From contig JAFEMH010002338.1 of the NCBI GenBank assembly GCA_022495995.1, positions 62,001 through 126,000 of the forward strand: a stretch of 64,000 bases of DNA, written 5' to 3'. Positions 2,761 to 63,241 of this stretch are shown in pieces (position 1 is the stretch's first letter; every line of letters starts with the position of its first letter). The stretch comes from Adenophora triphylla var. japonica (lineage: Eukaryota > Streptophyta > Magnoliopsida > Asterales > Campanulaceae). The notes beneath the pieces were generated by a model. It saw nothing but the letters and a program-made list of their open reading frames with translations. It did no database searches and was not told where the DNA came from. Both the position numbers and the translations under genes were made by a program.

Positions 2761-3220
2761 TTCTTTCATAAGTGACGTCGTCGAGGGGCTTCGTAAGTAC
2801 CCCAACTGGATCACACCCTTTCAAACACACGGGAAGCACCGCAGACTCATCAACGCAGCCTCGATGACCCCTCTCACTCAAAACCCTCTCTAAACCCCCA
2901 CCCAAACCAAGTGGAGGAGCCTTTCGGGATAAAAAGGGACAAAAGGACCTTTCGGGAATTTTCAGAAATTGGAAAAGCAATAATGGTCCGTACGGACCTC
3001 TTTGCTTTAATAATTACCGAATCTTCTTAAAGTCCACAATATTCCCTCAAATCCCGGGAAAATGATTACCCTCATGCTTAGTTGGTCCGTACGGACCTCT
3101 TTGCATGCAAGATGGTCCGTACGGACCTTATTGCTCAGGGGACACCATAATTACGTAATATTCACCATCATCACATATTCCCTCAAATCGAGGAAAACCA
3201 AAAACTCGGATTACTGTGGA

Positions 3221-3264
3221 GGTCCGTACGGACCTTCTTGCACCTAATCCGGCACTATAAATAG
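3221..3264 (+). promoter_or_regulatory. LTR core promoter of element A: palindrome plus TATA box
   Basis: GGTCCGTACGGACC (3221-3234) is followed 21 bp later by TATAAATAG (3256-3264). Further copies of the palindrome lie upstream in the same LTR at 2985-2998, 3084-3097 and 3114-3127. The TATA placement, in the first third of the LTR, marks the U3/R boundary shortly downstream. Confidence 0.7.
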
Positions 3265-3931
3265 AGGGCTCCCCTCCTCATTTTCACACACCTCCCAATT
3301 CTCTCTTCCTCCCTAGGCCTTCTCGGCTTCCCCTCTAAGTCCTTCCGAGGCATTCCCGGCCCCTTTCGATCCTTCCGAGGCCTTCCGAGCCCCTCGTGGT
3401 GCTCCGAAGCCTCCCCGAGCGCTTCCGAGATGCTCCCGCGCCGCCCGAGGCACTCTCGAGGTACTCGAGGCCCCTCGTGGTACTCCGAGGCCTCGCTGGG
3501 TCTTTCCACGGTGTCCCGGCTCTTTCCGAGTCAAACCGACGATCCCAAACCACACCGAAACTCCGCCCGAGTGACTCCCGCCACCACAACGCACGCCGAA
3601 CCTCTCGCCCGAGTGATCCCGACGATCCCCACGCACGCCGAATCTCTCGCCCGAACGCAGCCTCGCAACCTCAACTCACGCCGAAACTCTGTCCGCGTAC
3701 AACCGACATCTCCCGAAGCAATCCCGATCCGTACCGAACGCTACTCCGACCTCAAACACTATTCCCTGCCAATGAAGACGTACACGAACCAACATTGGTA
3801 AGGCTTCCTTCCTACACTATTTCAATACATTTCCATACATAGCATACAATGTAGACATCCGATACAGCATGCATTTTTAAAAGCACACACACACACACAA
3901 CATTTAAAGGATATTAGGGGTATCCGAAAGA

Positions 3932-4007
3932 CTCGTTTTACGAGGCGACTCGGGTGAGCTCTAATATTCTAATATTCTCTTCCCGAGGAGTCATCTGACC
4001 TCCGAAC
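3932..4007 (+). other. R/U5 double hairpin (element A)
   Basis: Hairpin 1 is CTCGTTTTACGAG (3932-3944). Hairpin 2 pairs CTCGGG (3949-3954) with CCCGAG (3982-3987). The box TGACCTCCGAAC follows. The other LTRs here have the same arrangement with changed but still complementary stems. Confidence 0.6.
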
Positions 4008-4196
4008 TCAAAATCTCATCACACAAAAACGGTTTAAAATTATCTTTAAACTGATGCCCTTTTTCAATATTTTGGGCTTAATAAAAACGGCGTGGCGACT
4101 CTACAAATGCGAAAACAAAACGGCGAGACACCGCTCCAACGCGAAAGATTGCCAGATGCCGGGGCTGCGAAGCCTACTCGGATCCGGGCTATTTCA

Positions 4197-4511
4197 GCAA
4201 GGGAATGATTTTAATCCATGAAAATGAGTTTTTGGGTGCAAAGGATGCATCTTTAATGTGAAAAGAGATTTTGAGTGCAAAGTATGCAATTTTTATGCAA
4301 AGAAATGATTTTTAGTGCAAAGGATGCAGCTTTATGTAAAAAAAATGGCATTTTAACGAAAAGATGACATTTTTATGTACATAGATACTATCTAAATTGT
4401 AGATTGACATCAGATTATAGCATGATGGGGGTTAAAATCAGATTACAAACTAAACAGATGAAGATTCTGCAAACTGGCCTAAGTTGTCGCGTGATATAGG
4501 TTGCCTATGTC
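4197..4511 (-). repeat. Internal fragment of the 3' LTR of element C, between A and B
   Basis: It matches 38303-38615 of C's 5' LTR almost base for base, including the GCAAGGGAATG start and the repeated GTGCAAAGGATGCA words. It is bounded by the CA end of A (4196) and the left end of B (4512). The last five bases ATGTC are B's target duplication; GCAAG at 4197-4201 is the candidate duplication for A. Confidence 0.85.
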
Positions 4512-4641
4512 TGTGATGAATGTGTTATCCGAAAATTTTCCCATTTTTTTGTTTGAAAGAAAATCAACGAAAACGGAGTCGCCACGCCATTTTAATTTTG
4601 AGGGCCAAAACTTTGAAAAAAGCCCGAGATCAGAGATTTTA

Positions 4642-4708
4642 GGTTCGGAGGTCATGTTACGCGTCGGGAAGGACGTTAGTGTGCACCCGACGCGCCTCGT
4701 AAAACGAG
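4642..4708 (-). other. R/U5 double hairpin (element B, left LTR)
   Basis: Hairpin 1 is CTCGTTTTACGAG on the minus strand (4708-4696). Hairpin 2 pairs CGCGTCGGG with CCCGACGCG (4686-4694 and 4660-4668), a perfect 9-bp stem with a 17-nt loop. TGACCTCCGAACC follows at 4654-4642. The right LTR has an identical copy at 21541-21607. Confidence 0.65.
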
Positions 4709-5914
4709 TCTTCCAAGCTGAAAATCATTTGTGTGTGTGTGTGTGTGTGTGTTTTGGCCAAAATAAGTTGAAACTCAGAAAAGTAAAAATTGGGATATCT
4801 TTTTAAGACTTTAAACTGATCCCATGATTTTTTGGAAGATTTTTGGATTGAGATTTGGTACTCAAAAGACCTTTTGAAGTTGAGAGCCATTTCTGCCAGA
4901 GTGAAAAAGGCAGTGGACCTTTGATTTTGAAATGGATTCAAGGGTCTTAAAACTTCATAATCTGGATAAACTCAGAGAATGAAAGTTGTTCTAGACACCT
5001 TAAATAAGATTTTTGCGAAGGAATATTCCATTTTGGAGAAGATTTGAGGGGTCAAAACCTTCTGGAAACCTCAGATATGAGATCTGGATTCCCAGAAGCT
5101 GATGAACTAGCCTCTGAAAGGAAATTTTAAAAGAGGAGTTTTACTCACCCAAAAAATAAAATAAAAATATGTCTGGAAAGCCCTGGATGTTGGCTACAAA
5201 AAGTATTTTGTAGTAAACACCAAATTCCAAGTTCATCTGTGTCCAAAAATTAAGACCATGGACTGAGGTCTGAGAAAATTGCTACTGGACAGCAACTTCT
5301 CAAGAAGGAGAATATGATTTTAAAGGGGGTTTTGCATCCATGCTTGTCCCCATTTCCCTAGGTTTTGGTTAGTGATCACTAGACATTTTAGTGGTGAATC
5401 AACTATACCAAACCATCCTTGGGGTACATTAGGACTAAGCATTTCATTTGCTTGGGGAGGGGGATTTTACCCTTTGAAAATGAGATTTTATGCTTGAAAA
5501 TGGTTTTTAGGGTTTTGAAAATGAGTTTTCTTTGCAAGAAAGTAAGAGAACTTGAAAATAATGTTGATCTTTGTAGAAGATCATCCATGGAGATGGTCTT
5601 CCATGGTGATCTTCTTAGATCTAGAGCAAGAAGATGAAAGAACTACATTTTGTAGTTTGAAGATGCATGCATGGATGAGATTTAGGGTTAGGAAGAGGAG
5701 GGTTTACCAATCTTCCTTGTGTTCTTGAGTGTTTGGCTTGAGAGTATGAGTGTTTAGGGCTTTAATATGAGAGTGAGTGGATGAGTATGAATTGGGAAAG
5801 ATTGGAGAGAAAATGGTGACAATTCAAGTGAATTCTCACTGTTTTCTCTCTATATTTCGCCAGAGGTTCGGTGCAAAATGTGTTTTTCCTCCTTATTTTT
5901 GTGACTGGAGGGCT

Positions 5915-5956
5915 CAATTTATAGCCCTCTGGAAATTGCAATCATGTCCGCGCGGA
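5915..5956 (-). promoter_or_regulatory. LTR core promoter of element B (left LTR)
   Basis: On the minus strand TCCGCGCGGA (5956-5947) precedes TATAAATTG (5923-5915) by about 23 bp. The same palindrome precedes both antisense genes of this element. Confidence 0.68.
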
Positions 5957-6254
5957 TGGGATCCCTCAGCGTGCACTGTTCATTAAATGCAGCTCCAGCT
6001 TTGGACAAGAAGAATATTTCTTTTCAAAATTCAAATTAACAGCCAGTTTTTGTGTTTCCAGCCATTGCCATTTTTGGTTTTCTTCTTTTGTTTTGCTTTT
6101 TGAGATTCTTTTTAAGGTTTAACCTTAAATAACAATGCCCATTTTACCCTCACTTTGTTAGAGAAGTTAGGATTGTTAGGAATTGTTAGAAATGTTATAA
6201 CTTTCGTTAATTTTCTAACGAAAATTCTAACAAGCTCAAATTGGAGCACTTACA

Positions 6255-6949
6255 AGTAGCCCTCGGCGACGGCGCTTCGAAGGAAGCGGGGTCGTCGATA
6301 AGAGTAAGGCTCCATATTTGGCAGATGATCGAGTGATCGGGTGGCCGAACCTAGCGATAGGCTACCTACGTATCTCGTATGGGAATCAAGCCGCCGTAGT
6401 TCGGGTCCTGACCACAGGGAGATGATGGCGTTTTAGGTGCCTCGAACCCGATGAGCGAGTTCTACAATGCCGGCCGGAGAGAAACTCGCTGGGATAAGAG
6501 ATGACCATTTTCGGTCGATGGCTATCCGCTCTACTGGGATAGGAATGACCATTTTCGGTCTCTGCTGGGGATGATTGCGATTTATCGCTTTCCTAGTGAT
6601 AGCGTCTTAGGTGCCTTGAAGATGGCGTTTTAGGTGCCTCGAACCTTGAAGATGGCTTTTTAGGTGCCTCGGACCTTGATGATGATGGCGTTTTAGGTGC
6701 CTCGAACCTTGATTTGAAATGGCCTTTCGGTGGACTTCGTTTGCTGCCGAAGGAGAGGGTGACCGTTTTGGTCGACGGGCCGGGATTCCTAATGATAGGC
6801 TACCTACGTATCCCTAGTGGGAATCAAGCCCTTTCGTAGTTCGAGTCTTACTCGAGATCTCGTTGGCTTTTGGGATTCCGTTAATTTTCTTTGGGGATTT
6901 CGTTAGCCTTCTTGGGAAAAATCGGACATATTCGATGCAGGAAATTGGT
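6255..6949. repeat. Segment next to the 3' LTR of B: PPT region and CTACG...CGTAG motifs
   Basis: It begins with AGTAGCCCTCGGCGACG, whose counterparts border the 3' LTRs of A and C; on the minus strand this is the presumed polypurine region. Two copies of GGCTACCTACGTATC ... CGTAGTTCG (about 6359-6405 and 6783-6838) and several GATGACCATTTTCGGTC or GTGACCGTTTTGGTC inverted repeats (about 6505, 6550, 6750) follow. No gene seen. Confidence 0.6.
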
Positions 6950-7615
6950 CTTACGTTTGATCGCCGTTGGATGATTTTGATGAAAGATACGGGATCTCGT
7001 TATCTTTCTCGGGCACTCGGTCTTACGTTTGACTGCCGGGAAGATTTTGATGAAAGATACGGGATCCGTTATCTTTCTCGGGGCACTCGGTCTTACGTTT
7101 TTCTTTGGGGGAATAATTTTGATGAAAGATACGGGATCTCGTTATCTTTCTCGGGGTACTCGGTCTTACGTTTGACTGCCGGGGGTAATTTTGATGAAAG
7201 ATACGGGATCCGTTATCTTTCTCGGGGCACTCGGTCTTACGTTTGACTGCCGGAGATTGATTTTGATGAAAGATACGGGATCTCGTTATCTTTCTCGGGA
7301 AGATCGGTCTTACGTTTTACTGCCGGGGGTAATTTTGATGAAAGATACGGGATCCGTTATCTTTCTCGGGGCACTCGGTCTTACGTTTTACTGCCGGGGG
7401 TAATTTTGATGAAAGATACGGGATCTCGTTATCTTTCTCGGGGCACTCGGTCTTACGTTTGACTGCCGGGAATGATTTTGATGAAAGATACGGGATCCGT
7501 TATCTTTCTCGGGGCACTCGGTCTTACGTTTTACTGCCGGGGGTAATTTTGATGAAAGATACGGGATCCCGTTATCTTTCTCAGGGCACTCGGTCTTACG
7601 TTTGACTGCCGGGGA
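6950..7615. repeat. Tandem array of about 72-bp stem-loop units, about 10 copies (element B)
   Basis: Each unit contains GTCTTACGTTTGACTGCCGG and then an inverted repeat GAAAGATA-N10/11-TATCTTTC (arms of 8). Some units read GGATCTCG and others GGATCCG in the loop. Open frames crossing it are simple translations of the repeat. Element E carries the same array in the opposite window orientation at 63358-64000. Confidence 0.88.
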
Positions 7616-7733
7616 AGATTTTCTTGACAAGGGGCTGACTTTGGTTAACTTTGGTTAACTCTGTCAAGTTGGGGATTGAATTGCAGAGTCCTGGAATTTT
7701 AAGGGGCAAAAGGGTCATTTTGACCCTTGCAAT

Positions 7734-7751
7734 CCTATCCGCGCGGATAGG
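7734..7751 (+). promoter_or_regulatory. 18-bp palindrome upstream of the antisense PMD gene of B
   Basis: CCTATCCGCGCGGATAGG is a perfect 18-bp palindrome containing the TCCGCGCGGA core of the LTR. A weak TATA-like GGTATTAATTA follows about 15 bp later, then a GA-repeat leader (about 7826-7840) and the ATG at 7912. Confidence 0.65.
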
Positions 7752-7911
7752 GTTTGAAAACCAGGGGTATTAATTAGGGCCAACGCCCTTTCTCTTCCCC
7801 ATTCAGTTTTTTTCAATTTTGAACGCAGAGAGAGAGAGAGAGGCTCGCGAATCCGCCATTATTGGCCTTAGAAGCTTCAAAAATCTTCCGATTTCTTCGA
7901 TTTTTTGAGCA

Positions 7912-10793
7912 ATGGAACACGGGGAAGGCGCTTTTCAAGGCCAAGGACGTGGCCCGGTAGCGGAGAGGCGATTGGAGCTCGTCCGGATGAGGAGGCATTA
8001 CAATCTTTCGCAATCGGTTGCGGAGGAGCATTACCCCGATGCTTGGCAACATTGGGCTTCGGATTCGAATCTCCGGACGGTATACTTTGAAACCCTTTGA
8101 TCCCTTTGTTGATTTCTTGCTTGACATTGATTTTTGGGTGATTTGATTTTTTTTTTTTTGGTAATTTCGAAAATGACCATGTTCTTGGCCTTGGATTTTG
8201 ATTTTGATGCTATGCATGTTGATGATGACTTTTTTTTTTGAAATTGAATATTGATCTTGATGATATGCATGTTGCAATGAATTTGTGGGTATCCCAAAAT
8301 GTGCATTTTGCTTGGGAAAAGAATTGGCATTTTTGCCACATTTTTTTTTGGAATATTGTGAATTGTGATGATGCAATGCATGCATTTTGTTTTTGAAAGA
8401 ATGGGCATTTTGCCAATATGGGATGTATGTATGTTTAGGATATATTTTTTTTCTTTGAAAAGTGGGACGGATTTTTCCTCCCGTTGCATGTAAGATGGAT
8501 GATATGCATGTATGCAAATTTTTTTTTTTGAGATGATGGATGGTATGCATGTTATTTTATGAAAATGGGACGGAGTTTTTACTTCCGTAGGAATGCATCT
8601 TTTTTTTTTTTTTGATGAATGCATTGGGATTTGCTGAAAACTGTCTTTTCTGTGAGAAAAATGGGGCTATGCTCATTGTATGCTGTTATGCTGTCGAATT
8701 TTTTTTTTTTAAATGCATGTGTATGCTTTCTTTTTTTTTGTAAATGCAAATGCAAAATTTTTTTTTTTGACATTTTCTCTCTCTCTTTTTTTTCTTTTAC
8801 AGGGCGGAAACCGTTTTGTGACGGAGCAGCTGAACAAAATGAAGACTCGAGGATCGGTGGAGTCCATGATTGACTTGTGGGACCGGCTTCCGGATGCGGG
8901 CCGAGGAGCTTTGCCGAGTCCGAGACAGATTGTTGTCGAGACGGGGCTCTGGGAGTTTGTCGAGTGCTTGAGGGGACTGGTCAAGTTCCCTAAGAGCAAG
9001 GGCTTGATGTTTGCTCTGGCGCAGCATTGGTGGGACGCGACCCACACCTTCCACTTCTTCTGGGGCGAGGCTACGGTTACGCCCTCCGACTATGCCGCGA
9101 TCACGGGTTTGTCCTTTAATGGACGCAGCATTGAGTGGCGGGATGGCTACAGCGATGCCGATCCTGTGCTCTTCGGGATTTTCCCCTATTCCCAAAAAGG
9201 GGATGGGGATGGAGTATGCGGTGGTCTACGGGAAGGTTGTGGAGACCATTGCGAGTTATGAGGCCGGGAGGAGAGGATAGGCGCCGATCGATTGCCGTGG
9301 CCTTCTTGTGGTTTGCTTTTTCGAGCACGCTCTTTGGACATGCCGAGGGACGGCAGCCTTTGCCTTGTTGAGGTCCTTGGAGGATATGGAGACGGCCGGA
9401 GATGTCTCGTGGGGAGAGGCCGGGCCGGCAGAGCTTTATTTTGCTTTCGATAGGTACACAAGGCCGTAAGCTCTTTGTACCGCTTTCGAAGTTTGCCCCC
9501 GGAGGTATAAGCTCTCTTTTTGCTTTTCCTTTTTTTTTTTGAGCACGCACTTTTCTTTTGCACCGGATTGATTGGATTTTTACCTTTTGCAGTGTATGGG
9601 CGTTGGAGTTTTTTCACGTCACGATGTGGCGGCGGCGGCGGAGTACGTCGGGGCGTATCCGGCCATGCAGTCTTGGTCCAAGCATGCCCGGGAGAAGATA
9701 AGCTCCAGGGGGCGTACGACTCTCAGTGTACGCGGATTGCCTTCCTTTGACGGAGGCCGAGACAGATGAGGGGATGATATTCTTCCCCGGGATCGCTTCG
9801 AGGTGGCGCACCAAGGGCGCCGAGATTTGGACTGTGGCAATGGAGGATTCTGAGAGGTCCGACCTGCGATGCATATTATCTGGGAGAGAGGGTGACGCGC
9901 CAAAGCATGGCGTGAATTCGCCTTGAGGACACCGGTGGAGCCTCCCGTCGATATGATGCACTCCGAGCGATCGGTCCGTGACCTGGGATGATTACCGAGC
10001 CGGCCAAAGACTTCTCGGATTTCGTGGCGATTGAGCCATATGCGACATTCGTCTTGAGGAGGCTGAGGACGCCTCAGGTCCTGGATAGGGAGGGGCTTGG
10101 GATCCCGCGGTACCCTCGGACGGATTTTTCCTATATCCAGGATGGGGTCCGATTGAGGGTGCAGATCCCTCAGCCCGAGCGACTTCCACGAGCTTTCCGG
10201 CCTCGTCCGGGTATGAAGGTATAGCTTCACCTTTTCCCCTTCTTTTCTTTCCTTTGTTTCATCATCTTTAGCATCACTTTCTTTTTGACGCTTTTGCTTT
10301 TGTGCAGTTTTCGGAGGTGGTCGTCGAGAAGCTGACGAAGCAAGTGATCGGGGCCAAGAGATTCATCAGGAGGATGGTCGCTTGCGGGGCTCCTCAGGCT
10401 AGAGCGAGGCGGCCACGGCCGGCGCCTGTCAGACGGGAGGTTTCCCCTATTCGCTCAGAGACTTCTTCAGAGACTCCTTTGTCTCCTCTCCTTGATCCTC
10501 GCGCGGTACTGCCTTCGGATCACGTCATTCTCGGGGATCCACACGGGCAGGGACACGTATGGCAGCATGGCGGGTCGTCTTCGTACGTCCAGGAGTCCGA
10601 CGCCTTCACCTTTGGATACGATTTTTTCGCAGATCTCGGCTTGCCCTATCAGAGCGTGCCGGTTGGTCCTGATGAGCCTCTTTCTGGAGACGAGGACGAT
10701 TCTGAGCCCGAGATTTTCAGGGCTCCTGAGGAGGCGGGCCCGAGTCGCAAGAGGGGCCGGGGGCAGACATCGGGCGCTGGAGACTCCGATTGA
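7912..10793 (+). pseudogene. Antisense plant-mobile-domain (aminotransferase-like) gene of element B, frameshifted
   Basis: Four exons can be traced. Exon 1 is 7912-8079 (56 codons; donor ACG|GTATAC). Exon 2 starts at 8803 after TTTTACAG and stays in phase; it carries the plant mobile domain core, with WWDATHTFHFFWGEATVTP and SDYAAITGLSFNG. Exon 3 starts at 9593 and exon 4 at 10308, ending in an acidic/basic tail at 10793. In exon 2 the frame shifts after about 9165 and again near 9270; exon 3 shifts after about 9730, so no full-length product is possible. PMD proteins are known both as plant nuclear proteins (MAIN/MAIL1 type) and inside Ty3/gypsy and MULE elements; the role in retroelements is not established. 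It runs opposite to gag-pol. Confidence 0.75.
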
Positions 10794-11148
10794 TCTTTTC
10801 TTTTTTTCTCTTTTTTTTTGAGATTGAGATTTAGATTTGTACAGCTTATGCACATTTTTTTTTCTTTGGGATGTAATAATTTAGGATTTTATTTATGTTT
10901 GTTTGTTTTTTTTTATACACACTCTTTTTTTTGGAATGTAATAATTTAGGATTTTATTTATGTGAATGCAATGCAGTATGAATGCAGTGTTGCATGAGCC
11001 TTTTTTTTTTTTTTTTGCAAGGGTGTTTGGTATATGGACTGGTTTGGGGAGGTTTTTTTCGCACAGGTTTCGAGCAACCGGACGGAATATTCCTCTTTTG
11101 GTGTAAGCGACTTGGGTGTTGCAAAGATTTTTTTTTTTGGCGAGACTC

Positions 11149-11160
11149 ATCCGCGCGGAT
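11149..11160 (+). promoter_or_regulatory. Palindrome upstream of the DUF7745-like ORF
   Basis: ATCCGCGCGGAT, a perfect 12-bp palindrome, lies 130 bp upstream of the ATG at 11291. It shares the TCCGCGCGGA core with the LTR and with the site in front of the PMD gene. I see no clear TATA box between it and the ATG. Confidence 0.55.
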
Positions 11161-11290
11161 AGGACGGGGAATCGACAGCTTTGTCCTTTAATTTTGGTTC
11201 GAACTTTGGTCTTGCTTTATTTCAAATTCAAATATCCTCTTCAACCTCCAAATTCAAACAGCCATTTTCGGGGAGAAAGAGAGAAAAACC

Positions 11291-12796
11291 ATGGAAAACT
11301 TTAGAAAAGCTCCATCAAAATTGTCCCAAGAATCCCAAATGTCATTCTTCAACAAGTTCAAGGATTGGTCCCGGGAGATCATGCATGAGAGGAGGTCCTT
11401 CTTTGAAGAAAGGTACAAGGTGAGGTGCTTATGGTCTCTCAAGGAATTGGTTCCGGACTACGACCTTTTGAGAGCTTCTTCATCATTTTGGGATACTAGA
11501 AGGCATGTCTTTTGCCTTTCCTTCAACGAGATTGTTCCGACTGTCGAAGAATTTCGGGCCTTGCTTGGAGGTCCGGAGGTGGAAGAGATAGCGGTTCCCT
11601 TGCCCGGAGGGGCTTCTTTTGCTGACAGATTGTGCGTCCTCCTTCATCTTTCCCCGGAGGAAGCGCAAGGTATGATCCGCGGTCCCGATCATTTCGATAT
11701 TTCCGGTCTTCCCGACAGATTTAGGGGCCTAGGTTTGGTGGATGATGCCTATTGGGATGCCTTTGCACTTTGTGTGTTTGGCACCCTGTTCATGGTCTAT
11801 TCCTTTGGGATCTGCCATCGGTCTTTGCTGGACGTTGTCGTTCACTGTCGCCTGGGCAGAGATGTCGTTCCTTTGATTCTGGGGGAGACTCTTCATGCTC
11901 TCGACAGATTAGCTACCGGACGGCGGTATATGCACGGGGGCAGCCCGTTCCTCTTGACCCTGTGGCTGATGGAGCGTTTGGGGGTTCTTCGGGAAACCTC
12001 TGATATGATCAGGCCTTGGACTTTTGCCAGGAGAGGTGTTGATGTAGATTTTGATGATCAGGGCTCGTGGGAGCGTTGGATGGCGGGTCGCCAGACTGAA
12101 GATATCAGATGGTCGGTGCCTCATTGGCGGGTGGAGACTCGAAGAGTGCTTCAGGATGGGTCTCCCGTGGTTATGCTTCCGGGGCTTTCTCAGTCTAGCT
12201 TCTATATTCCGGCTTTAGTTCTGAGACAATTTGGCCTGGAGCAGGTTCCCTTGGAGGGTTTTGATGATATAGCCACCAGGGTGGTGGCTCCTGTTTCTAT
12301 GGATGATCCCTCAGTGTTTCCATTTCTTTCCCGAGCATGGAGGTATGATGCCTTTCCTCCTCGGGTCATTCTCAGGCGTCCGAGACCGGTGTTCCTGACC
12401 ACTTGGTACCTGGATTGGTATGAGAGGCATCTGGGAGAGACTCAGGTGGCTATTTTCAGACGGCGTGAGGCCATTGTGGGTGCGGAGGACCTGACTGTTT
12501 CTGAGAGGAGGAGGGCCGAGGCGAGGGCCAATCCTCATGATAGGAGCGGAGACGCTGTGACTGATTATGAGGCTTACGTCAGGAGACAGGAGAGGAGGGC
12601 TCCTATGCTACCAGCTAGGCTACAGGAGATGAGGGATGACGCTAGGGCTACTAAGGCCCTGACAGAGGCTGGTTTGATAGACCCTGTCCCTATACCAGAG
12701 CTTGGTAGGAGGAACACTGACATTTTTCCTGTTCAGAAAAAGAAGACTCGAAGGGGGAAGAAGAGGGGAGAAGCCAGTACGAGTGGCTTGGAGTGA
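11291..12796 (+). CDS. Intact antisense DUF7745-like ORF of element B (501 aa)
   Basis: A single uninterrupted frame from an ATG in good context (AACCATGG) to TGA. The N-terminal half has the pattern I associate with DUF7745 proteins of plant retroelements: FWDTRRHVFCLSFNEIVPT then VEEFRALLGGP (about residues 70-95), followed by a Leu-rich helical region with HRSLLDVVVHCRLGRDVVP and GETLHALDRLATGRRY (about residues 175-215). The C-terminus is charged and ends in a Lys/Arg-rich stretch (KKKTRRGKKRGE), suggesting a nuclear or nucleic-acid role; that is inference. It lies antisense to the retrotransposon, between integrase and the PMD gene. The homologous ORF in E (58122-59668) is frameshifted. 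Domain name is moderately certain; function unknown. Confidence 0.7.
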   Translation: MENFRKAPSKLSQESQMSFFNKFKDWSREIMHERRSFFEERYKVRCLWSLKELVPDYDLLRASSSFWDTRRHVFCLSFNEIVPTVEEFRALLGGPEVEEIAVPLPGGASFADRLCVLLHLSPEEAQGMIRGPDHFDISGLPDRFRGLGLVDDAYWDAFALCVFGTLFMVYSFGICHRSLLDVVVHCRLGRDVVPLILGETLHALDRLATGRRYMHGGSPFLLTLWLMERLGVLRETSDMIRPWTFARRGVDVDFDDQGSWERWMAGRQTEDIRWSVPHWRVETRRVLQDGSPVVMLPGLSQSSFYIPALVLRQFGLEQVPLEGFDDIATRVVAPVSMDDPSVFPFLSRAWRYDAFPPRVILRRPRPVFLTTWYLDWYERHLGETQVAIFRRREAIVGAEDLTVSERRRAEARANPHDRSGDAVTDYEAYVRRQERRAPMLPARLQEMRDDARATKALTEAGLIDPVPIPELGRRNTDIFPVQKKKTRRGKKRGEASTSGLE

Positions 12797-13399
12797 CTCT
12801 GAGGTTTCCGAGTATCCCTTTCTTGTCATGGCAGACACATTAGTTTGATTATGTATCTTAGTTTTCCTTTAGCAGGTTGCCAGTTGTAGGAATGAATCGG
12901 GCTTAGACTCATCAAAGAGCTTTTAACTTGTAATGAATATTTGAATTGCTTTAGAGTTTTTCGAGACGCTTTCATGGTCTGATCAATTGTATTGATGCCA
13001 AAGTATGGCTTTTATTTGTGCTTTAGACCGAACCGTTTCCGGCTGCCTACGTTCCCCTCATTTTGAGGAGCTCAGGTCTTCGTAGTTCAAACTGGTGAAC
13101 TCTCTTTTTTTTTTCTTTGTTGTTTTTTTTTTTGTTTTTTTTTTTTTGTTTGGTGCAACCCTGTTTTTTACCTAGGCCGCCCTTCTCGGGTTTCTAACCT
13201 AGTTGGGTATTACTCTTTTAGCACTCTTTTGTTTCTTCTCTTTTTTTTTGTTTTTTTTTTGTTGTTTTTGTTTTGTTTTTTTTTTGGTGCAACCCTGTTT
13301 TTTACCTATGCCGCCCTTCTCGGGGTTCTAACCTAGTTGGGTATTACTCTTTTAGCGCTCTTTTTTTTTTTTGTTTTTTTTTCTTTCTTCTTTTTTTTT
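12797..13399. other. Region between the DUF7745-like ORF and the end of pol (element B)
   Basis: Contains TGCCTACGTTCCCCTCATTT followed by a CGTAGTTC partner (about 13041-13090), many T tracts, and a direct repeat pair (about 13151-13230 and 13290-13370) beginning GTGCAACCCTGTTTTTTACC and ending GGGTATTACTCTTTTAGC. A similar pair occurs in element C (31065-31245). No gene. Confidence 0.6.
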
Positions 13400-14280
13400 T
13401 TACGCGTAGTATCTGCGCAGCTTGTCACCATTCACTGGGTGTACAAAGGGATTCCCGTCGAGGTCTGCAAGTTGCATGGCTCCTCCGGAGAAGATCTTCT
13501 GGACGACATACGGCCCGACCCATACAGGCTCCCATTTGCCGAGGGGTTGAGACGGACTGGAGGGCTTTTCCTTCAAAACGAGATCACCTTCTCGGATCTC
13601 CCGATGCTTTACTTTCTTGTCGAAGGCTCTAGCCATTCTTCCTTGGTAGGCCCGGATGTGTTCCATGGCCTTCGGTCGCGTTCGTCTAGTAGGGCCGATT
13701 CATCATGGCGACTCTGGAGCCATTCGACCTCGTTGATCTGGCTTTCCAACAGTATACAGAGCGAGGGTATTTCCGGCTCGATTGGGAGTACGGCTTCCAT
13801 TCCATATGTGAGGAGCAAAGGTGTTTCCCCGGTTGCCGTTTGGCCCGATGTTACGTAGCCCCGAGTGCCAGGTGTAACTTCTCGGGCCAATCTACGCCTT
13901 GGACTGGCCATTTTCCGGATGATATTTTCCGAGTCTTGTTTGCTTTGCTTCGACGGCTCCGTTGGTTTGGGGCACGTAGGGAGATGACTTGTGACGGGTT
14001 ATTCGGAATTCCGCCCGGCAATTTTCACATTCCCCTTCGAAGTGGGATCCATTATCTGAAATGATTTCGGTTGGCAACCCGTATCTGTACATGATGTTTT
14101 CTTTGATGAAGAGGGCAACTTTCTTTGAATTGAGGATTTTGTAGGACTTTGCAGAGCATCCTTTCCAATTCCTTCGAAGAAATGACCAATCTGCGTCTCT
14201 TTAGGCTCTTCGCAGTTCCCAATTCACACTTGTCAAAATCTCTTCGGCGGCTTGGGCTCGATTTTCCTCTTCCAGGACAA
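13400..14280 (-). pseudogene. Partial integrase of element B
   Basis: On the minus strand 14092-13892 encodes the second half of a retroviral-type integrase core, YGLPTEIISDNGSHFEGE and SPYVPQTNGAVEA (the second Asp and the Glu of the DDE triad). After a frame change, 13911-13609 keeps the segment around LLLTYGMEAVLPIEPEIPS, and 13666-13400 holds the C-terminal part with REGDLVLKEK, GKWEPVWVGPYVV and NGDKLRRYYA. The zinc-binding N-terminus and the first catalytic Asp are missing and at least two frameshifts are present, so it is inactive. The sequence pattern is of the Tat/Ogre kind. Confidence 0.8.
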
Positions 14281-15124
14281 CTGCTTGTTTTTGATTTTTT
14301 TGTTTAATGTGTCTGCTTCTTTATCTAATGAATTATTATTAAAATTTTTTTTATTAATTAATTCATCATTAGTTAAAGTGGCAATCAAGGGATACTCAGA
14401 AAGGTTCGTCATTTCATTGAAAACGAAAGGGGATACAGTGCTTGCTACGGACTCGTAGTCTTCAGGCGTAAGGCCGTCGGACGACTCTAGAGACTCGATC
14501 TTAACAGAGAGAGACTGGGAGGACTTGTCCTAGATTGACACAAAGGGACGGGGACCAATCCAAGCTTGGTGATCATTTCTTCCTTGGTCGCGGACGGGCA
14601 CAGAGAGTTTCCCAATTCTTTAGCGGCATCGCTGTTGGTGGCCTCATGACTCGGGAAGCTGTCTTGTTTTTGTTTTCCTTTCTCAATTGCCGCTATCATT
14701 TCTTGGACCGAGCCGAGATCAATCGGGTCACCTGGACTTCTTCTTCGAACAATTGCTTTGCATAACCGAGACCATACCAATCATACGAGGGAAATTCCGT
14801 GGCCTTAGCTTTTGGCACTGTCGGTTCGAATTCGGGTTTCGGATCTTCTGGGCGTAGGAATAGTGGTTGTGAGCTTTTCGAACTGTTCCACCGGAGTCGG
14901 GCACGCCTACGAAGGTATACTCGCTCTTCATGGTAGTGGTAGCCCCGGGTATCTTGGGTAGGTCCGGGAACATTCTACGGACCGGGTTAGCCTTGGTTCC
15001 TCTGAACTTGTTGAGGCTATCCTGTAGCTTTAGCCATCTGCCGTAGGAGTGGGCTCTGTGATGTTTCTGGTTGTGTGGGACCCTTTACAAAGTAGTCGGC
15101 CAAATTAGGGCGAAGGGGAGAGAT
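14281..15124 (-). pseudogene. Remnant between protease and integrase; reverse transcriptase absent
   Basis: Minus-strand fragments (14973-14728, FVGVPDSGGT; 14780-14487, DLGSVQEMIAAIEKGKQ) resemble the linker that follows the protease in Tat-lineage polyproteins. No RT motif (such as Y/F-x-DD) or RNase H motif is present in any frame. Only about 0.85 kb lies between protease and integrase, where RT and RNase H would need well over 1.5 kb, so these domains were deleted. An AT-rich stretch at 14290-14380 may mark the junction. Confidence 0.6.
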
Positions 15125-16247
15125 CTAGGATTGTCGGCCAAGGGACCTTTCCTGTGGCGGCTTCAAATCTTTTTCCCTTTGCGGTGTCATTTGGGAGGCC
15201 TCATATCCCGGGCCGTGGCGAGTATTCTGTCCTTTCACCTCGATGAGTTTGTGAGTTCCTTGTTGGTGCTTCCCAGGCCAGAGGCCGGGTAGATAGCTCA
15301 TTTTTCTCATCATTTTCAAGACCGGTGGGATTTTATCCCGAGTGACCGTCGGATCTATGTTGCACACTTGGGCCTTGGGAGGCTCGACCGTGAAGCCCGT
15401 TAGCATGTGACCTTCCTCGTCATGTTTGATTTCGAGGAATAGGTATTCCGCCGTATCTGTGCCCTCTAAAGTGACTAAATCTCCGTAAATGGTCGTCGGA
15501 TCCCCATTCGAGACAATTTCACACCTTTGGTGGAGGCTTGAGGCGACCCCTTTGACTTGATGGAGCCAAGGTCTTCCCGAGCGGGGCATTGAAAGTAATC
15601 GGGATGTCGATAACACGGAATTCCACAGGTATCAATTTACGTCCAAACCGAGAGGTCTAAAGTAGCAACTCCGAGGACTGCTCGGGATGTTGAGTCGTAA
15701 GCTTTATTTGTGAGAGAAGAAGGCTTCAAGTACGTAGTCTTGATATCAAGCAAGCTCATGATCTTTGCCGGAAGAATGTTCATTCCGGACCCATTGTCCA
15801 CCAGGACCCGAGGAGGCGTCGTTCATCCAGATGGGTGTGATGAAGAGAGGCTCGTTATGATCGGCCCCAAATTGAGGGAGGTCGAGATCTGTCGAAAGTG
15901 ATTATATTCCCGTAATGGATGTTTCCAATTAGTTGTACCACATCATCGGGAGTAGCATCAATAGGCACGAGAGTGCGAGCCGGGCTTTCTTCCGGCTTCG
16001 GCATGGGGATAGGACGAGGTGAGTAGAGACCGAGAGGAAATGTTGGCTGTGTTTGCTTCAAGCTGGGTGAGCACGGGATCCTCTTTTTCGAGTGCGGGTT
16101 TGTTGTCTTAGCATAGGGGCGGCGATCTTCTTTTGGTGCTTGATACGTGGCCTTCTTATACGCCTTGGGATTTCCTTGGAAGATGCGCCGAGATCGGGTT
16201 AACAGATTAACTTCCTCATCGGTCGTCTCTTGGCTGGATTTCTTCAA
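15125..16247 (-). pseudogene. Aspartic protease region of element B
   Basis: Minus-strand reading gives LVPIDATPDDVVQLIGNIHY near 15990-15920, then in another frame PRVLVDNGSGMNILPAK near 15815-15765, with VDNGS as the likely catalytic loop (D-N-G-S form, as in Tat/Ogre elements). Downstream is GRPWLHQVKGVASSLHQRCE (about 15570-15510), a typical post-protease motif of this lineage. The segments lie in different frames, so it is a pseudogene. It follows gag directly. Confidence 0.72.
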
Positions 16248-16902
16248 TGCTTTGCTAAGGTCGATGGGGAGCCCTTTTGGCTATTGGCCATTGGTTACGA
16301 CGGAGTCTAGTGACGATGAGGCCGAAAGCTGCATCTTGGCTCCTTCTGGGCGGCCCTTATGGCTGCTTCCCAAGTCACGAGCTTTTGAGTTTGGGGTTGT
16401 GTTGTTGCCCCTTGGATGGCCCACTGAGCTAGGGCGTCCTCCAGATTCACTCTCATGGCCGGCCTTGCTCATAGTTATCATGCAACAAGAGTCGCTATTG
16501 TCGGGACTCGGCGGCTTTTCGATTTCATCCCTTGGATGGCCCACGAGTTGTGGCTATCGGCCTCCATCACATCGTATATCCTTTTTCTTTCAATCTTGCA
16601 AGTAGGGCGGCCACAAGTGAAGGATAGGCAACGTTCCCCTTCGGAGTTTGAGGTAGCGGCTCGATAGATGCTGTGTCCAAATAAGGAGCACCGGGGTCCA
16701 TTGTCGGGCTTGGAGCAATTAGGAAGGCGTCATGTGGATTCATAGGTATGAAGGCCCTTTGGGGAGACGTTCGAGATCGATAACCCTTTTCGGTGATTGC
16801 GGGCACTCGCTGCGCTCGAGCGGCCCGGCGTGACCCTTACGGTTGTTATGCCATCCGTTCTTGGGAAAGAAGAAAAAGATCCGATAACGTTTCACGAATT
16901 CT

Positions 16903-19861: not shown

Positions 19862-20180
19862 ACGTTACGCTAAGCGATTCCACTTGTTGCTCTGTCCGAG
19901 GGGTCCGGGAGGCGGAGTGACGTTATCCCCATCATTACCGGGCGATGCGAGACATTACGAAACCCGGAGTCGGAACAAACGGTGAAGGCGATGACGCGCT
20001 TGACTCTTCCCAACCGGATCAAACGGTGACCCGGTGCCGAAACCAAGCTTTGTGCGGAGCCTGCGGGGAAAGGACACGAAGGTTCGATGTCGGGAATGGA
20101 AGGAGGGTAGGTGTTTGGGCTTTTGGCTCATGCAACATGCGGTTATTTGTTCACGTTTACTTAAAACATGTTTTATTAAC

Positions 20181-21390: not shown

Positions 21391-21409
21391 GTCCCCAGCG
21401 GAGTCGCCA
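21391..21409 (-). other. Primer binding site of element B
   Basis: On the minus strand the 5' LTR ends CATTCATCACA, then one base, then TGGCGACTCCGCTGGGGAC. The same 19 bases follow the LTR of C. PBSs of this form are reported from Tat/Ogre elements and, as I recall, assigned to an Arg tRNA; I could not check the tRNA. Confidence 0.8.
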
Positions 21410-21410
21410 C

Positions 21411-52548: not shown

Positions 52549-52582
52549 CTCACTCCCCCTTAAAGAAAATTCGCCCCGAATT

Positions 52583-56458: not shown

Positions 56459-56499
56459 TCCGCGCGGACATGTTTGCATTTTCAGGAGGGCTATAAATT
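56459..56499 (+). promoter_or_regulatory. LTR core promoter of element E
   Basis: TCCGCGCGGA (56459-56468), then TATAAATT at 56492, 23 bp later, as in B. Confidence 0.68.
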
Positions 56500-58121: not shown

Positions 58122-59668
58122 TTAATGTGTCTGCCATGACAAGAAAGGGATACTCGGAAACCTCGTAGTCACTCCAAGCCACTCGTCTTGGCCTCTCCCC
58201 TCTTCTTCCCCTTCGAGTCTTCTTTTACGAACAGGAAAAATGTCAGTGTTTCTCCTACCAAGCTCTGGTATAGGGACAGGATCTATCAAACCAGCCTCTG
58301 TCAGGGCCTTAGTAGCCCTAGCGTCATCTCTCATCTCCTGTAGCCTAGCTGGTAGCATAGGAGCCCTCCTCTCCTGTCTCTTGACGAAAGCCTCATAGTC
58401 GGTCACAGCGTCTCCGCTCCTATCATGTGGGTTGGCCCTCGCCTCGGCCCTCCTCCTCTCGAAGCTTGATCGGGTCCTCCGCACCCACAATGGCCTCATG
58501 CCGTCTCAAAATAGCCACCTGAGTCTCTCCCAGATGCCTCTCATACCAATCCAGGTACCAAGTGGTCAAGAACACCGGTCTCGGATGCCTGAGAATAACC
58601 CGAGGAGGAAAGGCATCATACCTCCATGCTCGGGAAAGAAACGGAAACACTGAGGGATCATCCATAGAAGCAGGAGACACCACCACAGTGGCTATATCAT
58701 CAAAGTCCCCCAAAGGAACTGCTCCCGAGGCCAAAGCGTCTCGAGAACTAAAGCCGGAATACGTAAGCTAGGCGAGAAAGCCCGGAAGCATGACCACATG
58801 AGACCCATCTGAAGCACTCTGCGAGTCTCCACCCGCCAATAAGGCACCGACCATCGATATCTTACGTCCGGAGACCAGCCATCCAACGCTCCCATGAGCC
58901 CCGATCATCAAAATCCACAATAACCCCCCTCCTGGCAAATGTCCAAGGCTTGATCATGTCGGGAGTTTCCCGAAGAATCCCCAAATGCTCCATCAGCCAC
59001 AGGGTCAAGAGGAACGGGCTGCCCCCGTGCATATACCGTCTTCCGGTAGCCAGCCTATCAAGAGCATGAAAAGTCTCCCCCAGAATCAAAGGAACGACAT
59101 CTCTTGCCAGGCGACAGTGAACGACAACATCCAGCAAAGACCGATGGCAAATCCCAAAGGAATAGACCATGAACAGGGTGCCAAACATACAAAGTGCAAA
59201 GGCATCCCAATAGGCATCATCCAAGCCTAGGCCCCTAAACCTATCGGGAAGGCCGGAAATATCAAAATGATCGGGACCACGGATCATACCTTGCGCTTCC
59301 TCCGGGGAAAGATGAAGGAGGACGCACAATCTGTCAACAAAAGAAGCCCCTCCGGGCAAAGGAACCGCTATCTCTTCCACCTCCGGACCTCCAAGCAAGG
59401 CCCGAAATTCTTCGACAGTCGGAACAATCTCGTTGAAGGAAAGGCAAAAGACATGCCTTCTAGTGTCCCAAAATGAGGAAGAAGCCCTCAAAAGCTCATA
59501 ATCCGGAATCAATTCCTTGAGAGACCATAAGCACTTCACCTTGTACCTTTCTTCAAAGAAGGACCTCCTCTCATGCATAATCTCCCGGGACCAATCCTTG
59601 AACTTGTTGAAGAATGACATTTGGGATTCTTGGGACAATTTTGATGGAGCTTTTCTAAGGTTTTCCAT
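58122..59668 (-). pseudogene. DUF7745-like ORF of element E, frameshifted
   Basis: Starts at 59668 with the same MENLRKAPSKLSQESQMSFF as B and stays open to 58862, with FWDTRRHVFCLSFNEIVPT conserved. After GSWERWMAG the frame changes, and again near 58740 and 58490; pieces FPFLSRAWRYDAFPPRVILR and DRSGDAVTDYEAFVKRQERR continue the homology. It is antisense to element E. Product lost. Confidence 0.8.
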
Positions 59669-59797: not shown

Positions 59798-59807
59798 TCC
59801 GCGCGGA
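59798..59807 (-). promoter_or_regulatory. Palindrome upstream of the DUF7745-like pseudogene of E
   Basis: TCCGCGCGGA, 130 bp upstream of the ATG at 59668, the same distance as in B (11160 to 11291). Confidence 0.58.
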
Positions 59808-60191
59808 CATGATTGTCATTTATCGAGAAAAATCTGCAATGTCCAAGCTGCTACACCAAAAGAGGAATATTCCGTCCCGGTTGCTCGAAAACCGTGAAAA
59901 AAAAACCTCCCCAAACCAGTCCATATACCAAACACTAACACCCTTGCCAAAAAACCAAGGCTCATGCAACACTGCATTCATACTGCATTGCATTCATAAA
60001 ATAAAATCCTAAATTATTACATTCCAAAAAAAAAAGAGTATGCATAAAAAAAAACAAACAAACATCAATAAAATCCTAAATTATTACATCAAAAAAAAAT
60101 ATGCATAAGCTGTACAAATCTCAATCCCAGTCATAAATCTCAAAATCTCAGAAAATCAGTCTAAAAAAAAAAAAATCGGGGGGAGGGGTAA

Positions 60192-63069
60192 TCAATCGTA
60201 ATCCCTAGCGCCCGACGTACGCCCCGGTCCCTCTTGCGACTCGGGCCCGCCTCCTCGGGAGCCCTGAAAATCTCGGGCTCGAATCGTCCTCGTCTCCGGA
60301 AAGAGGCTCGTCGGGACCAACCGGCACGCTCTGATAGGGCAAGCCGAGATCTGCGAAAAAATCGTATCCAAAGGTGAAGGAGTCGGACTCCTGGACGTAC
60401 GAAGACGACCCACCATACTGCCAAACGTGTCCCTGCCCGTGTGGATCCCCGAGAATGACGTGATCCGAAGGCAGCACCGCGCGGGGATCAAGGAGAGGAG
60501 ACAGAGGAGTCTCGAAGAAGTCTACGAGCGAATAGGGGAAGCCTCCCGTCGACGGGCGCCGGCCGTGGTCGCCTCGCTCTAGCCTGAGGAGCCCCGCAAG
60601 CGACCATCCTCCTGATGAATCTCTTGGCTCCGATCACTTGCTTCGTCAGCTTCTCGACGACCACCTCCGAAAACTGCACGAAAGCAAAAGCGTCAGAAAC
60701 AGTTGAAGCGAAAAAAAATGATGACAGGAAAGAAAAGAAAAGACAAAAGCAAAAAAAGAAGGGGAAAAGGTGAAGCCATACCTTCATACCGGACGAGGCG
60801 GAAAGCTCGTGAAAGCCGCTCGAGCCGGAGGATCTGCACCCTCAATCGGACCCCATCCTGGATATATGAAAAATCCGTCCGAGGGTACCGCGGGATCCCA
60901 GCCCCTCTCTATCCGGAACCCGAGGCATCCTCGGCCTCCTCAAAACAAATACGGGTGCGGCTCGGTCGCCACAAATTCCGAGAAGTGCCGGCCGGCCCCG
61001 TAATCATCCCAGTCACGAATCGTCACTCGGGTGCATCATATCGGCGGGAGGCTCCATCGGTGTCCTCACAGCGAGTTCACGCCATGCTTTGGCGCGTCAC
61101 CCTCTCTCCCGAGATAATATGCATCGCGAGTCGACCTCTCGTAATCCTCCGCCGCACGGTCAAATCTCGGCGCCCTTCACTGCGCCACCTCGAAGCGATC
61201 CTGTGGGAAGAATATCATCCCCTCATCCGTCTCGGCCTCCGTCAAAGGAAGGCAATCCGCGTACACGAGAGTCGTACGCCCCCTGGAGCTTATCTTCTCC
61301 CGGCATGCTTGGACCAAGAATGCATGGCCGGATACGCCCGACGTACTCCGCCCGCCGCCACATCGTGACGTGGAAAAACTCCAACGCCCATACCTGCGAA
61401 AGGTAAAAATCAAATCAATCCGGTGCAAAGAAAAGTGTGTGCTAAAAAAGAGGGAGAGGGAAAGCAAAAAGAGAGCTTATACCTCCGTGGCAAACTCAAA
61501 ACAAGACAAGGAGCTCACAGCCTTCCGGTGTACCTATCGAGAGCAAAGTAAAGCTCGCGGCCCGACCTCTCCCCACGAGACATCTCCGGCCATCTCCATG
61601 TCCTCCAAGGACCTCGGCAAGGCAAAGACTGCCGTCCCTCAGCATGCCCAAAGAGGGTGCTCGAAAAAGCAAACCACAAGAAGGCCCTGGCAATCGATCG
61701 GCGCCTATCCTCTCCTCCCGGCCTCATAGCTCACAATGGTCTCCACAATCTTCCCATAGACCACGGCATACTCCATCCCCATCCCCTTTTGGGAATAAGG
61801 GAAAATCCCGAGAAGAGCTCGTAGATCCGCATCGCCGTAGCCATCCCGCCACTCAATGCTTTGCGTCCATTGAAGGACAGCCCGTGATCGCAGCCGTAAT
61901 CGGAGGGCATAACCGTAGCCTCGCCCCAGAAGAAGTGAAAGGTGTGGGTCGCGTCCCACCAATGCTGCGCCAAAGCAAACATCAGGCCCTTGCTCTTAGG
62001 GAACTTGACCAGTCCCCTCAAGCACTCAACAAACTCCCAGAGCCCGGTCTCAACAACAATCTGTCTCGGACTCAGCAAAGCTCCTCGGCCCGCATTCGGA
62101 AGCCAGCCCCACAAGTCAACCACGGACTCCACCGATCCTCGAGTCTTCATTTTGTTCACCGCTCCGTCACAAAACTGCTTTCCGCCCCGCAAAAAAAAAG
62201 AAGAAAGAGAGAAAATGCCAAAAAAAAATTGCATACACATGCATTAAAAAAAAAAATTTCGACAGCATAACGGCATGCAATAGACAGCCCCATTTTTCTC
62301 ACAGAAAAGACAGTTTTCAACAAATCCCATTCAACAATTTTCAATAAAAAAATGCATACATGCATATCCTACAAGAAGTTGACGGAAATAAAACTCCGTC
62401 CCATTTTCAAAAAAAAATGCATACATGCATATCATCCATCTTACATGCAACGGGAGGAAAAATCCGTCCCACTTTTCAAAAAAAAAAATCCTAAACATAC
62501 ATACATCTCATATTGGCAAAATGCCCATTCTTTCCAAACAAAATGCATGCATTGCATCATTCATCAATATCAATATTCAATTTCAAAAAAAAAAATCATC
62601 ATCACAATTTTCGAATTTTCAACATGCAATATTCAAATTTCAAAAAAAAAAATCAAAGTCACAATTCATAATTTTCGAATTTACAAAAAAAAAATGGCAA
62701 AACACCAATTCTTTTCTCAAGCAAAATGCACATTTTGAAACACCAACAAATTCATTGCAACATGCAAAACATCAAAATCAAGATTCAAAGCCAAGAACAT
62801 CAATCATTCGAATTTTCAAAAAAAAAAAAATTCAAAAATCACCCAAAATTCAAATCTCAAGCAAGAAATCAACAAAGGGAATGAAAAGATTCGAAGTATA
62901 CCGTTCGGAGACTCGGATCAGAAGCCCAATGTTGCCAAGCATCGGGGTAGGGCTCCTCCGCAATCGATTGCGAAAGAGTATAGTGCCTCCTCATCCGGAC
63001 GAGCTCCAATCGTCTCTCCGCCATCGGGCCACGTCCTTGGCCTTGAAAAGCGCCTTCCCCGTGTTCCAT
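60192..63069 (-). pseudogene. Antisense plant-mobile-domain gene of element E
   Basis: Exon 1 is 63069-62902 (168 nt; MEHGEGAFQGQGRGPMAERR). The acceptor of exon 2 is damaged: B has TTACAG|GGCGG while E has TTGCGGGGCGG near 62190. Exon 2 keeps HWWDATHTFHFFWGEATVMP (about 61975-61910) and then shifts frame. Exon 3 and exon 4 (FSEVVVEKLTKQVIGAKRF, about 60675) are recognisable but broken. It ends RTSGARDYD at 60192. Confidence 0.78.
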
Positions 63070-63231
63070 TGCTTGAAAATCGAAGAAAAACGGAAGATTT
63101 TTGAAGCTTTTTGAGCAACAATGGCGGTTCTCCTCGGCTTCTCTCTCTCTGCTCTCGACAATTTCAAAAAAACTGAATGGGGAAGGAGAAGGGCATTGGC
63201 CCTCATTAATACCCCTGACTTTCTAGTCCTC

Positions 63232-63241
63232 TCCGCGCGGA
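63232..63241 (-). promoter_or_regulatory. Palindrome upstream of the PMD pseudogene of E
   Basis: TCCGCGCGGA lies in a longer near-palindrome (TCCTCTCCGCGCGGACAGGA), 163 bp upstream of the ATG at 63069, as in B (7734-7751). Confidence 0.6.

Follow-up and report, generated by a model that had tools for sequence, protein, structure and literature searches.

Family-specific palindromes with a common CG-NN-CG core before the LTR and antisense-gene promoters of retroelements in Adenophora triphylla var. japonica

Retroelements and antisense genes in the window

The stretch analysed here (the window) comprises 64,000 nt of contig JAFEMH010002338.1 of Adenophora triphylla var. japonica, within an assembly of 2.48 Gb, and carries long terminal repeat (LTR) retroelements of the families A, B/E, C and D, in which short palindromes lie upstream of the LTR TATA box and of genes running antisense to the element (Table 1). 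A sequence-only reading of the window had proposed that each family carries its own palindrome at the LTR and re-uses it in front of its antisense genes, and its coordinates were checked by exact word search. All six A sites (876, 906, 2985, 3084, 3114 and 3221) were recovered, the gaps of 21 bp (A) and 23 bp (B) between palindrome and TATA box were right, and the core of B was indeed found again in E at 56459, 59798 and 63232. The B sites at 5947, 7734-7751 and 11149 were likewise exact, while that at 22848 is TCAGCGCGGA, with one substitution, and in C the pattern TATGTCGCRYGACATA occurs at all three positions given (23841, 23926, 25652), with a symmetry left imperfect by its CA centre. E had been treated as a separate case; its LTRs are 93% alike to those of B, so that the two form a single family and E is not an independent case. 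The reading, which had not listed D, a fourth family in the window, was thus confirmed in part.

The antisense orientation of the genes is judged from the strand of the LTR TATA box, which is opposite to that of the gene. The second antisense gene of B (B2) matches DUF7745 (PF24924, 6.4e-11) and an exon piece of the first (B1, 8803-9258) matches PMD (PF10536, 1.1e-11), both above the Pfam cut-off; one piece of the C antisense gene (C1, 26434-27006) matches PMD at 1.4e-8, 0.1 bit under the cut-off, and a second C1 piece has no Pfam match. The piece of the A antisense gene inside the window (1..715) yielded no domain; those of a further A copy, L012, which has both antisense genes, match B1 (PMD, 44%) and B2 (DUF7745, 33%). 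Judged by these matches, the antisense genes are real homologues of PMD and DUF7745 proteins. PF04195 (TRP28) was not detected at E-values up to 0.1 in B2, one B1 exon and two C1 pieces, the only sequences scanned for it, and one minus-strand open reading frame (ORF) of B has no Pfam match. The gene set points to Ty3/gypsy, an assignment that draws in part on PMC5418596. The C terminus of B2 is rich in lysine and arginine, the C-terminal exon of B1 (10272-10790) holds a basic and an acidic/aromatic stretch, and that of C1 (27784-28278) is extremely acidic; the basic and acidic/aromatic stretches of B1 and B2 may represent a nuclear signal and an activation region.

In E (56163-64000) the antisense-gene region comes almost immediately after the LTR (57839/57895), with no gag-pol between them; E is a non-autonomous form that retains the antisense genes and all three palindromes. 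Element B sits inside a C palindrome, with the target duplication ATGTC at 4507-4511 and 23156-23160, in a single case. A minus-strand ORF at 42310-43134 matches MULE transposase and, weakly, the FAR1 DNA-binding domain.

Table 1 Palindromic sites, TATA boxes and genes of the retroelement families in the window; distances are counted from the palindrome centre
Family	Feature	Position	Strand	Sequence	Remarks
A	Antisense gene, beginning only	1..715	-		Runs past window edge
A	Antisense promoter palindrome, proximal copy	876..889		GGTCCGTACGGACC	Exact search; TTTAAAA at 43.5 bp
A	Antisense promoter palindrome, distal copy	906..919		GGTCCGTACGGACC	Exact search
A	LTR palindrome 1	2985..2998		GGTCCGTACGGACC	Exact search
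A	LTR palindrome 2	3084..3097		GGTCCGTACGGACC	Exact search
A	LTR palindrome 3	3114..3127		GGTCCGTACGGACC	Exact search
A	LTR palindrome 4	3220..3235		GGTCCGTACGGACC at 3221	16 bp; 28.5 bp before TATA
A	LTR TATA	3256..3264	+	TATAAATAG	
B	Element B	4512..23155	-		LTRs 4512-6254 and 21411-23155; target duplication ATGTC
B	LTR TATA	5915..5923	-	TATAAATTG	
B	LTR palindrome	5947..5956		TCCGCGCGGA	28.5 bp before TATA
B	Palindrome before antisense gene 1	7734..7751		TCCGCGCGGA at 7738	18 bp; TATTAAT at 25.5 bp
B	Antisense gene 1 (B1)	7912..10793	+		Probable extent; several exons
B	Palindrome before antisense gene 2	11149..11160		TCCGCGCGGA at 11150	12 bp; TTTAATTT at ~32 bp
B	Antisense gene 2 (B2)	11291..12796	+		DUF7745; 501 aa; basic C terminus
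B	Second LTR site	22848..22857		TCAGCGCGGA	One substitution
C	Two variant sites	23158..23190		GTCGCGTGAC	Downstream of C TATA; B inserted in first
C	LTR TATA	23811..23819	-	TATAAATAG	
C	LTR palindrome	23841..23856		TATGTCGCACGACATA	29.5 bp before TATA
C	LTR palindrome, second copy	23926..23941			85 bp from first
C	Palindrome before antisense PMD gene	25652..25667			TTTAAAAATT at ~29 bp
C	Antisense gene (C1)	25840..28281	+		Probable extent; very acidic C terminus
C	Site in second antisense slot	28649..28658		GTCGCGCGAC	Within 30-bp near-palindrome
C	Variant site, second antisense slot	28683..28692		GTCGCGTGAC	
D	Solo LTR within C	32480..34243	+		Target duplication CCAGG
D	Site	32719..32728		GCCGCACGGC	60.5 bp before TATA 32784
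D	One-base variant	32750..32759		GCCACACGGC	29.5 bp before TATA
C	Matching variant cluster, other LTR	38589..38649			
E	LTR palindrome	56459..56468		TCCGCGCGGA	28.5 bp before TATA 56492
E	Antisense DUF7745-like gene	58170..59668	-		Interrupted frame
E	Palindrome before antisense DUF7745 gene	59798..59807		TCCGCGCGGA	
E	Antisense PMD-like gene	60200..63070	-		Probable extent; interrupted frame
E	Palindrome before antisense PMD-like gene	63232..63241		TCCGCGCGGA	TATTAAT at 25.5 bp

A shared core with family-specific arms

With the sites lined up on their centres, the word is TCCG-TA-CGGA in A, TCCG-CG-CGGA in B/E, GTCG-CA-CGAC in C, where the CA centre leaves the central pair mismatched, and GCCG-CA-CGGC in D. 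The sequence therefore does not differ entirely between families, as had been claimed: every site keeps CG-NN-CG, and it is the arms and the central dinucleotide that vary by family. A and B even share their TCCG arms together with a TTGCA flank at equal spacing (TCCG-NN-CGGACMTNNTTGCA). The A LTR holds four sites; in B there is one site per LTR and one ahead of either antisense gene. C holds sites that had gone unlisted, i.e. the two in its second antisense slot (28649-28658, 28683-28692) and three further matches to the pattern downstream of its TATA box (23178, 38611, 38634). This arrangement reads naturally as joint control of the LTR and antisense promoters.

From the centre of the palindrome to the LTR TATA box there are 28.5 bp in A, B and E and 29.5 bp in C and in the D variant; for the TATA-like boxes of the antisense genes the distance is 25.5-32.5 bp in B, E and C and 43.5 bp in A. 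Among the 54 TATAAATW words in the window and in an arbitrary sample (20 stretches of 10 kb, picked by contig number and regardless of content), six have a paired word centred 28.5-29.5 bp upstream and two have one at ~60 bp; none has such a word 5-70 bp downstream. This placement bears on the idea that the palindromes are no operators at all and serve as integration hot spots or as RNA dimer or hairpin signals. The insertion of B inside a C palindrome speaks for it, as does the weak palindrome preference of plant LTR elements at their insertion sites; that insertion is, on the other hand, a single one, and the preference is small and not significant for Retand or Ogre in the portion of the source at hand (PMC6911290). 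Sites in U3 upstream of TATA and at antisense promoters are not in the leader position for RNA dimerisation, and the fixed TATA spacing and the presence at antisense promoters fit transcription, which makes a non-operator role very improbable.

Several counts address chance. In the window 17 of the 37 CGYRCG words are also paired at ±4 and ±5 (about 1 in 16 expected), and all 17 occupy promoter slots of A, B, C, D or E, 15 of them previously listed and two new. Over window and sample together, the paired fraction of CGNNCG words is 0.47 for CG, 0.34 for TA and 0.18 for CA/TG centres, and 0.04-0.09 for the remaining centres, including GC. Palindromes of equal length and symmetry at random places were thus not seen, the enrichment being confined to certain centres, and palindromes as such were rejected as the distinguishing feature for the same reason. 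When palindromic 10-mers recurring at least 300 bp apart were counted against 200 dinucleotide shuffles, the observed count was reached in 0.015 (A), 0.010 (B) and 0.005 (E) of shuffles. C has no perfect recurrent palindromic 10-mers and reaches 0.010 only with a free centre, and only one of its five recurrent words is the promoter word; the segment 39085-56162 lacks perfect recurrent palindromes and has a single one when the centre is left free (0.755). Words outside promoters enter these counts as well, i.e. ATGCATGCAT, repeated in B and E, and GGAATATTCC, repeated in B. The latter, which we take to resemble a heat-shock element, recurs in B at 5020 and 11084, and in B, E, L009 and L022 it precedes the second antisense palindrome by ~61-66 bp.

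The agreement of the words within an element is far closer than that of their surroundings, as the sequence-only reading had led one to expect, and this held in new copies and new families. With one site chosen per slot and three slots each in A, B, E, C, D, F and G (the A slots coming from two copies, and the second C slot being without a recognisable gene), 21 of 21 sites share the ±2 to ±5 arms within their element, and an exact permutation of slots across the six independent families gives 6.9e-5. Over 28 comparisons, the sites agree at 10-14 of 14 positions and the flanks (±8 to ±40) at 14-31 of 66, the latter near or somewhat above chance. B and E cores are identical at 30 of 30 positions over three sites.

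Descent offers another account of this identity, namely that the LTR promoter module was copied into the internal region and the palindrome is a remnant, kept by gene conversion or by recent spread. It would explain why, at most sites of A and B/E, the TTGCA flank points the same way with respect to the element strand, and the unit has plainly been duplicated in tandem, at spacings of 30, 100 and 107 bp in A, 85 bp in C and 92-95 bp in G. Outside ±7, however, LTR and antisense flanks agree only at the 14-31 of 66 bases given above; at the second antisense site of B/E the core is identical in 10 of 10 bases, whereas the neighbouring 30 bp on each side are 50-67% identical. Moreover, the families changed their arms at all three sites, and no conversion tract reaching past the palindrome appeared in these comparisons. 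We therefore regard descent as improbable.

Throughout the assembly, the words stand well apart from their reversed controls: 47,555 occurrences against 0 for the A word GGTCCGTACGGACC, 12,110 against 316 for the B word ATCCGCGCGGAT, 11,186 (5,554 + 5,632) against 0 for the C word TATGTCGCACGACATA, 7,177 against 0 for the F word ATCTCGCGCGAGAT and 8,745 against 26 for the G word GTCCGGCCGGAC. GTCCGATCGGAC, which combines TCCG arms with the unused AT centre, is at background (70 against 72). Among the matches listed, a matching word lies within 8 kb for 62 of 63 in A (0.26 expected), 40 of 50 in F (0.05), 22 of 50 in B (0.08) and 31 of 50 in G (0.06), with recurring spacings of 30, 100 and 107 bp in A, ~990 and 2,005 bp in F, and 93, ~2,050 and ~3,240 bp in G. 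The arbitrary sample contains 17 YR-centred CG palindromes paired at ±4 and ±5, of which 14 fit the A, B or D word and lie in loci that also hold DUF7745-like sequence (DUF7745-bearing loci: L009, L012, L014, L017, L020, L022). All three slots of L009 and L014, at the LTR and the two antisense genes, carry TCCGCGCGGA, with TATA-like boxes 26.5-28.5 bp away, and L020, of family D, has GCCG-NN-CGGC in three slots. Of 14 DUF7745 gene starts whose upstream 420 bp were examined, 11 have a CGNNCG word as the strongest palindrome there.

Families F (L025, L026, L027) and G (L026, L028, L029) come from loci fetched outside the window. A search with the DUF7745 hidden Markov model gave 118 scored hits out of 15,523 candidates, and three stretches were fetched from them. 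Family F, reached through these hits alone, has CTCG-NN-CGAG at the LTR and both antisense genes; the copy in L025, which represents F, has even-centred words in all three slots. L026 holds a further DUF7745 gene, of family G, with AGTCCGGCCGGACT upstream. The prediction that the PMD gene and the LTR of G would carry the word of its DUF7745 gene was recorded before the neighbouring DNA was fetched, and it held: both carry TCCG-NN-CGGA. At the PMD promoter (L028:2292) AGTCCGGCCGGACT lies in a 28-bp near-palindrome with TTTAAAT 29.5 bp away, and the LTR (L029:3446) has AGTCCGGACGGACT, with one central mismatch, 25.5 bp before TATAAATAG. The G PMD gene occurs twice in tandem (L028:3201-3890 and 5472-6157).

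One or more host transcription factors that accept CG-NN-CG palindromes, with the LTR and antisense promoters answering one host signal, are a possible though doubtful cause of this pattern. The core is common to all families in one genome; CGTGCG (C, D) presumably resembles a brassinosteroid element, and CGCG (B, F) a CAMTA box. In Sireviruses, comparison of the repeated motifs with known plant cis-elements gave mainly stress-factor sites, in the part of the paper at hand (PMC2829016). On the other side, no host motif is known to fit TA, CG, GC and CA centres alike. The families share one nucleus, and therefore one host factor should hold all of them to one word; it would leave unexplained why the arms are family-specific yet match at three places inside each family, and why TCCG arms with an AT centre stay at background.

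A candidate circuit of operator and regulator

On balance we consider it probable, from symmetry, placement and co-variation of the sites, that the palindromes are family-private dyad operators read by a dimeric, most likely element-encoded factor that couples the LTR and antisense promoters. Each family would possess its own dyad-symmetric operator of ~14-30 bp, with the invariant CG-NN-CG core, family-specific arms and a family-typical centre (TA in A, CG in B/E, GC at the G antisense sites, mixed YR in C, D and F), and it would stand ahead of the LTR core promoter as well as ahead of the promoters from which the antisense PMD and DUF7745 genes are read. By binding there, a dimeric factor would link transcription of gag-pol, in sense, with that of the regulators, in antisense, in a single circuit. 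Because the arms differ between families yet agree at three places within each, an element-encoded factor is favoured; PMD would be the first candidate, alone or together with DUF7745, and the factor would activate its own family, or protect it from silencing, and feed back on the promoter from which it is itself expressed. What the sequence shows is the symmetry and placement of the sites, their identity within families and their return in new copies and families; the binding of a protein, its encoding by the element and the sign of its action are inferences. The earlier interpretation, i.e. co-evolving dimer-binding sites under one regulator, is strengthened in part, by the identity of the words within elements and by the test in new families; its premise of entirely different sequences fell, and the evidence for its link to PMD or DUF7745 proteins is indirect.

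Several observations weigh against this coupled-operator reading. The spacing is not universal, as the TTTAAAA of the A antisense promoter lies 43.5 bp from the palindrome centre, the intact D site stands 60 bp from TATA with only a variant at 29.5 bp, and in F the distance to TATA is ~158-164 bp for the LTR site and ~64 bp for the second antisense site; a fixed 28-bp spacing was rejected as a general rule on family F. In L026 and L027 the first antisense slot of F has an odd-centred word, and the G LTR has a GA centre where GC was predicted. No DUF7745 match was found downstream of the second-slot sites of the C element in the window. Three of the 17 sample palindromes (L012, L019, L021) are unassigned, and a further recurrent CG-NN-CG palindrome, GGGCGACCGCCC, occurs in unassigned elements (L018:2973, 2995, 3118; L025:6449, 7127). 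As for the proteins, an AlphaFold model of DUF7745 from a four-row alignment was useless (mean pLDDT, the predicted local distance difference test, 36), and among solved structures the DUF7745 alignment had no match and the PMD piece one weak match (E-value 0.89). DUF7745 divergence does not follow the arms, since A is 33% identical to B, with which it shares TCCG, and F is nearer; the PMD tree pairs C with F and A with G at a support of only 0.55-0.65. Co-divergence of DUF7745 with the arms was accordingly not seen, and the PMD tree is only suggestive. CpG retention at the B/E sites (9/9 against 276/339 overall) is not significant alone and was dropped as a sign of selection. Protein databases gave three and then six relatives of DUF7745; of 68 pattern stretches from viral contigs, none was a relative.

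Within the coupled-operator reading, PMD is slightly favoured over DUF7745 because C has a PMD gene and no DUF7745 match was found there, and because in PMD similarity A falls loosely together with G, as C does with F; the choice of PMD as reader of the word is a guess. Activation or anti-silencing is our preferred direction of action, by analogy with VANC, which gives a worked example (PMC5735166). A more specific version, which we advance tentatively, is that the antisense PMD proteins, with or without DUF7745, may be sequence-specific dimeric regulators, related to the host PMD silencing proteins MAIN/MAIL1, that co-evolve with the private CG-NN-CG operator, so that every family would have a self-coupled circuit of its own, its CpG core being methylation-sensitive and the whole acting also as an anti-silencing switch.

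Relation to known systems

A close precedent is found in the repeated motifs of Sireviruses (Ty1/copia), whose function is given as unknown by Bousios et al. 2010 (PMC2829016). There, as here, element-specific palindromes with a shared CpG core lie upstream of the LTR TATA box and of an extra gene, ENV in their case. Sireviruses differ in superfamily, in that ENV is in sense whereas the PMD/DUF7745 genes are antisense, and in having 8-32 copies per element against 1-4 sites per promoter here, so that the eight copies required of a Sirevirus motif are not reached. Their half sites are CGG...CCG with 0-5 bases between, a signature present in 12 of the 13 repeated motifs of Table 3 in that paper, whereas the sites here read CCG..CGG in A, B, D and G and TCG..CGA in C and F. 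The palindromes described here are a variant of the Sirevirus promoter logic, in a superfamily that is different by gene content.

In VANDAL elements, related families have diverged in an element-encoded factor (VANC) and, in step with it, in a short non-coding motif whose copies increase by tandem multiplication (Hosaka et al. 2017, PMC5735166); a family-specific non-coding motif that differs between related families is likewise present here. VANDAL is a DNA transposon, however, its motifs are not described as palindromic in the portion at hand, and VANC binding and demethylation are shown there, whereas our case is known from sequence alone. Retand elements are, like those here, Ty3/gypsy with antisense genes between pol and the 3' LTR, and their antisense proteins were proposed to regulate transcription from predicted DNA binding (Vicient 2025, PMC11963269). 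Their gene is TRP28 (PF04195) instead of PMD/DUF7745, and the available sections describe no promoter palindromes or target sites. The PMD proteins MAIN and MAIL1 are needed for genes with one promoter motif, DOWN, and gypsy-encoded PMD-A clades are known (PMC7156037, PMC9899485, PMC5418596); these are host genes, the DOWN example CATGCAGTTT is neither palindromic nor CpG-rich, and the parts of these papers at hand do not show direct binding.

None of the papers examined describes these words in gypsy elements, which does not prove that no such description exists. What the antisense genes of gypsy elements do is treated as unsettled in the literature, and with a matched cis-site before the LTR and these genes alike it becomes a question of direct binding with built-in controls for family specificity. 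If the coupled-operator reading is true, the PMD domain would gain a molecular role, and Sireviruses and these very different retroelements would have reached the same promoter logic.

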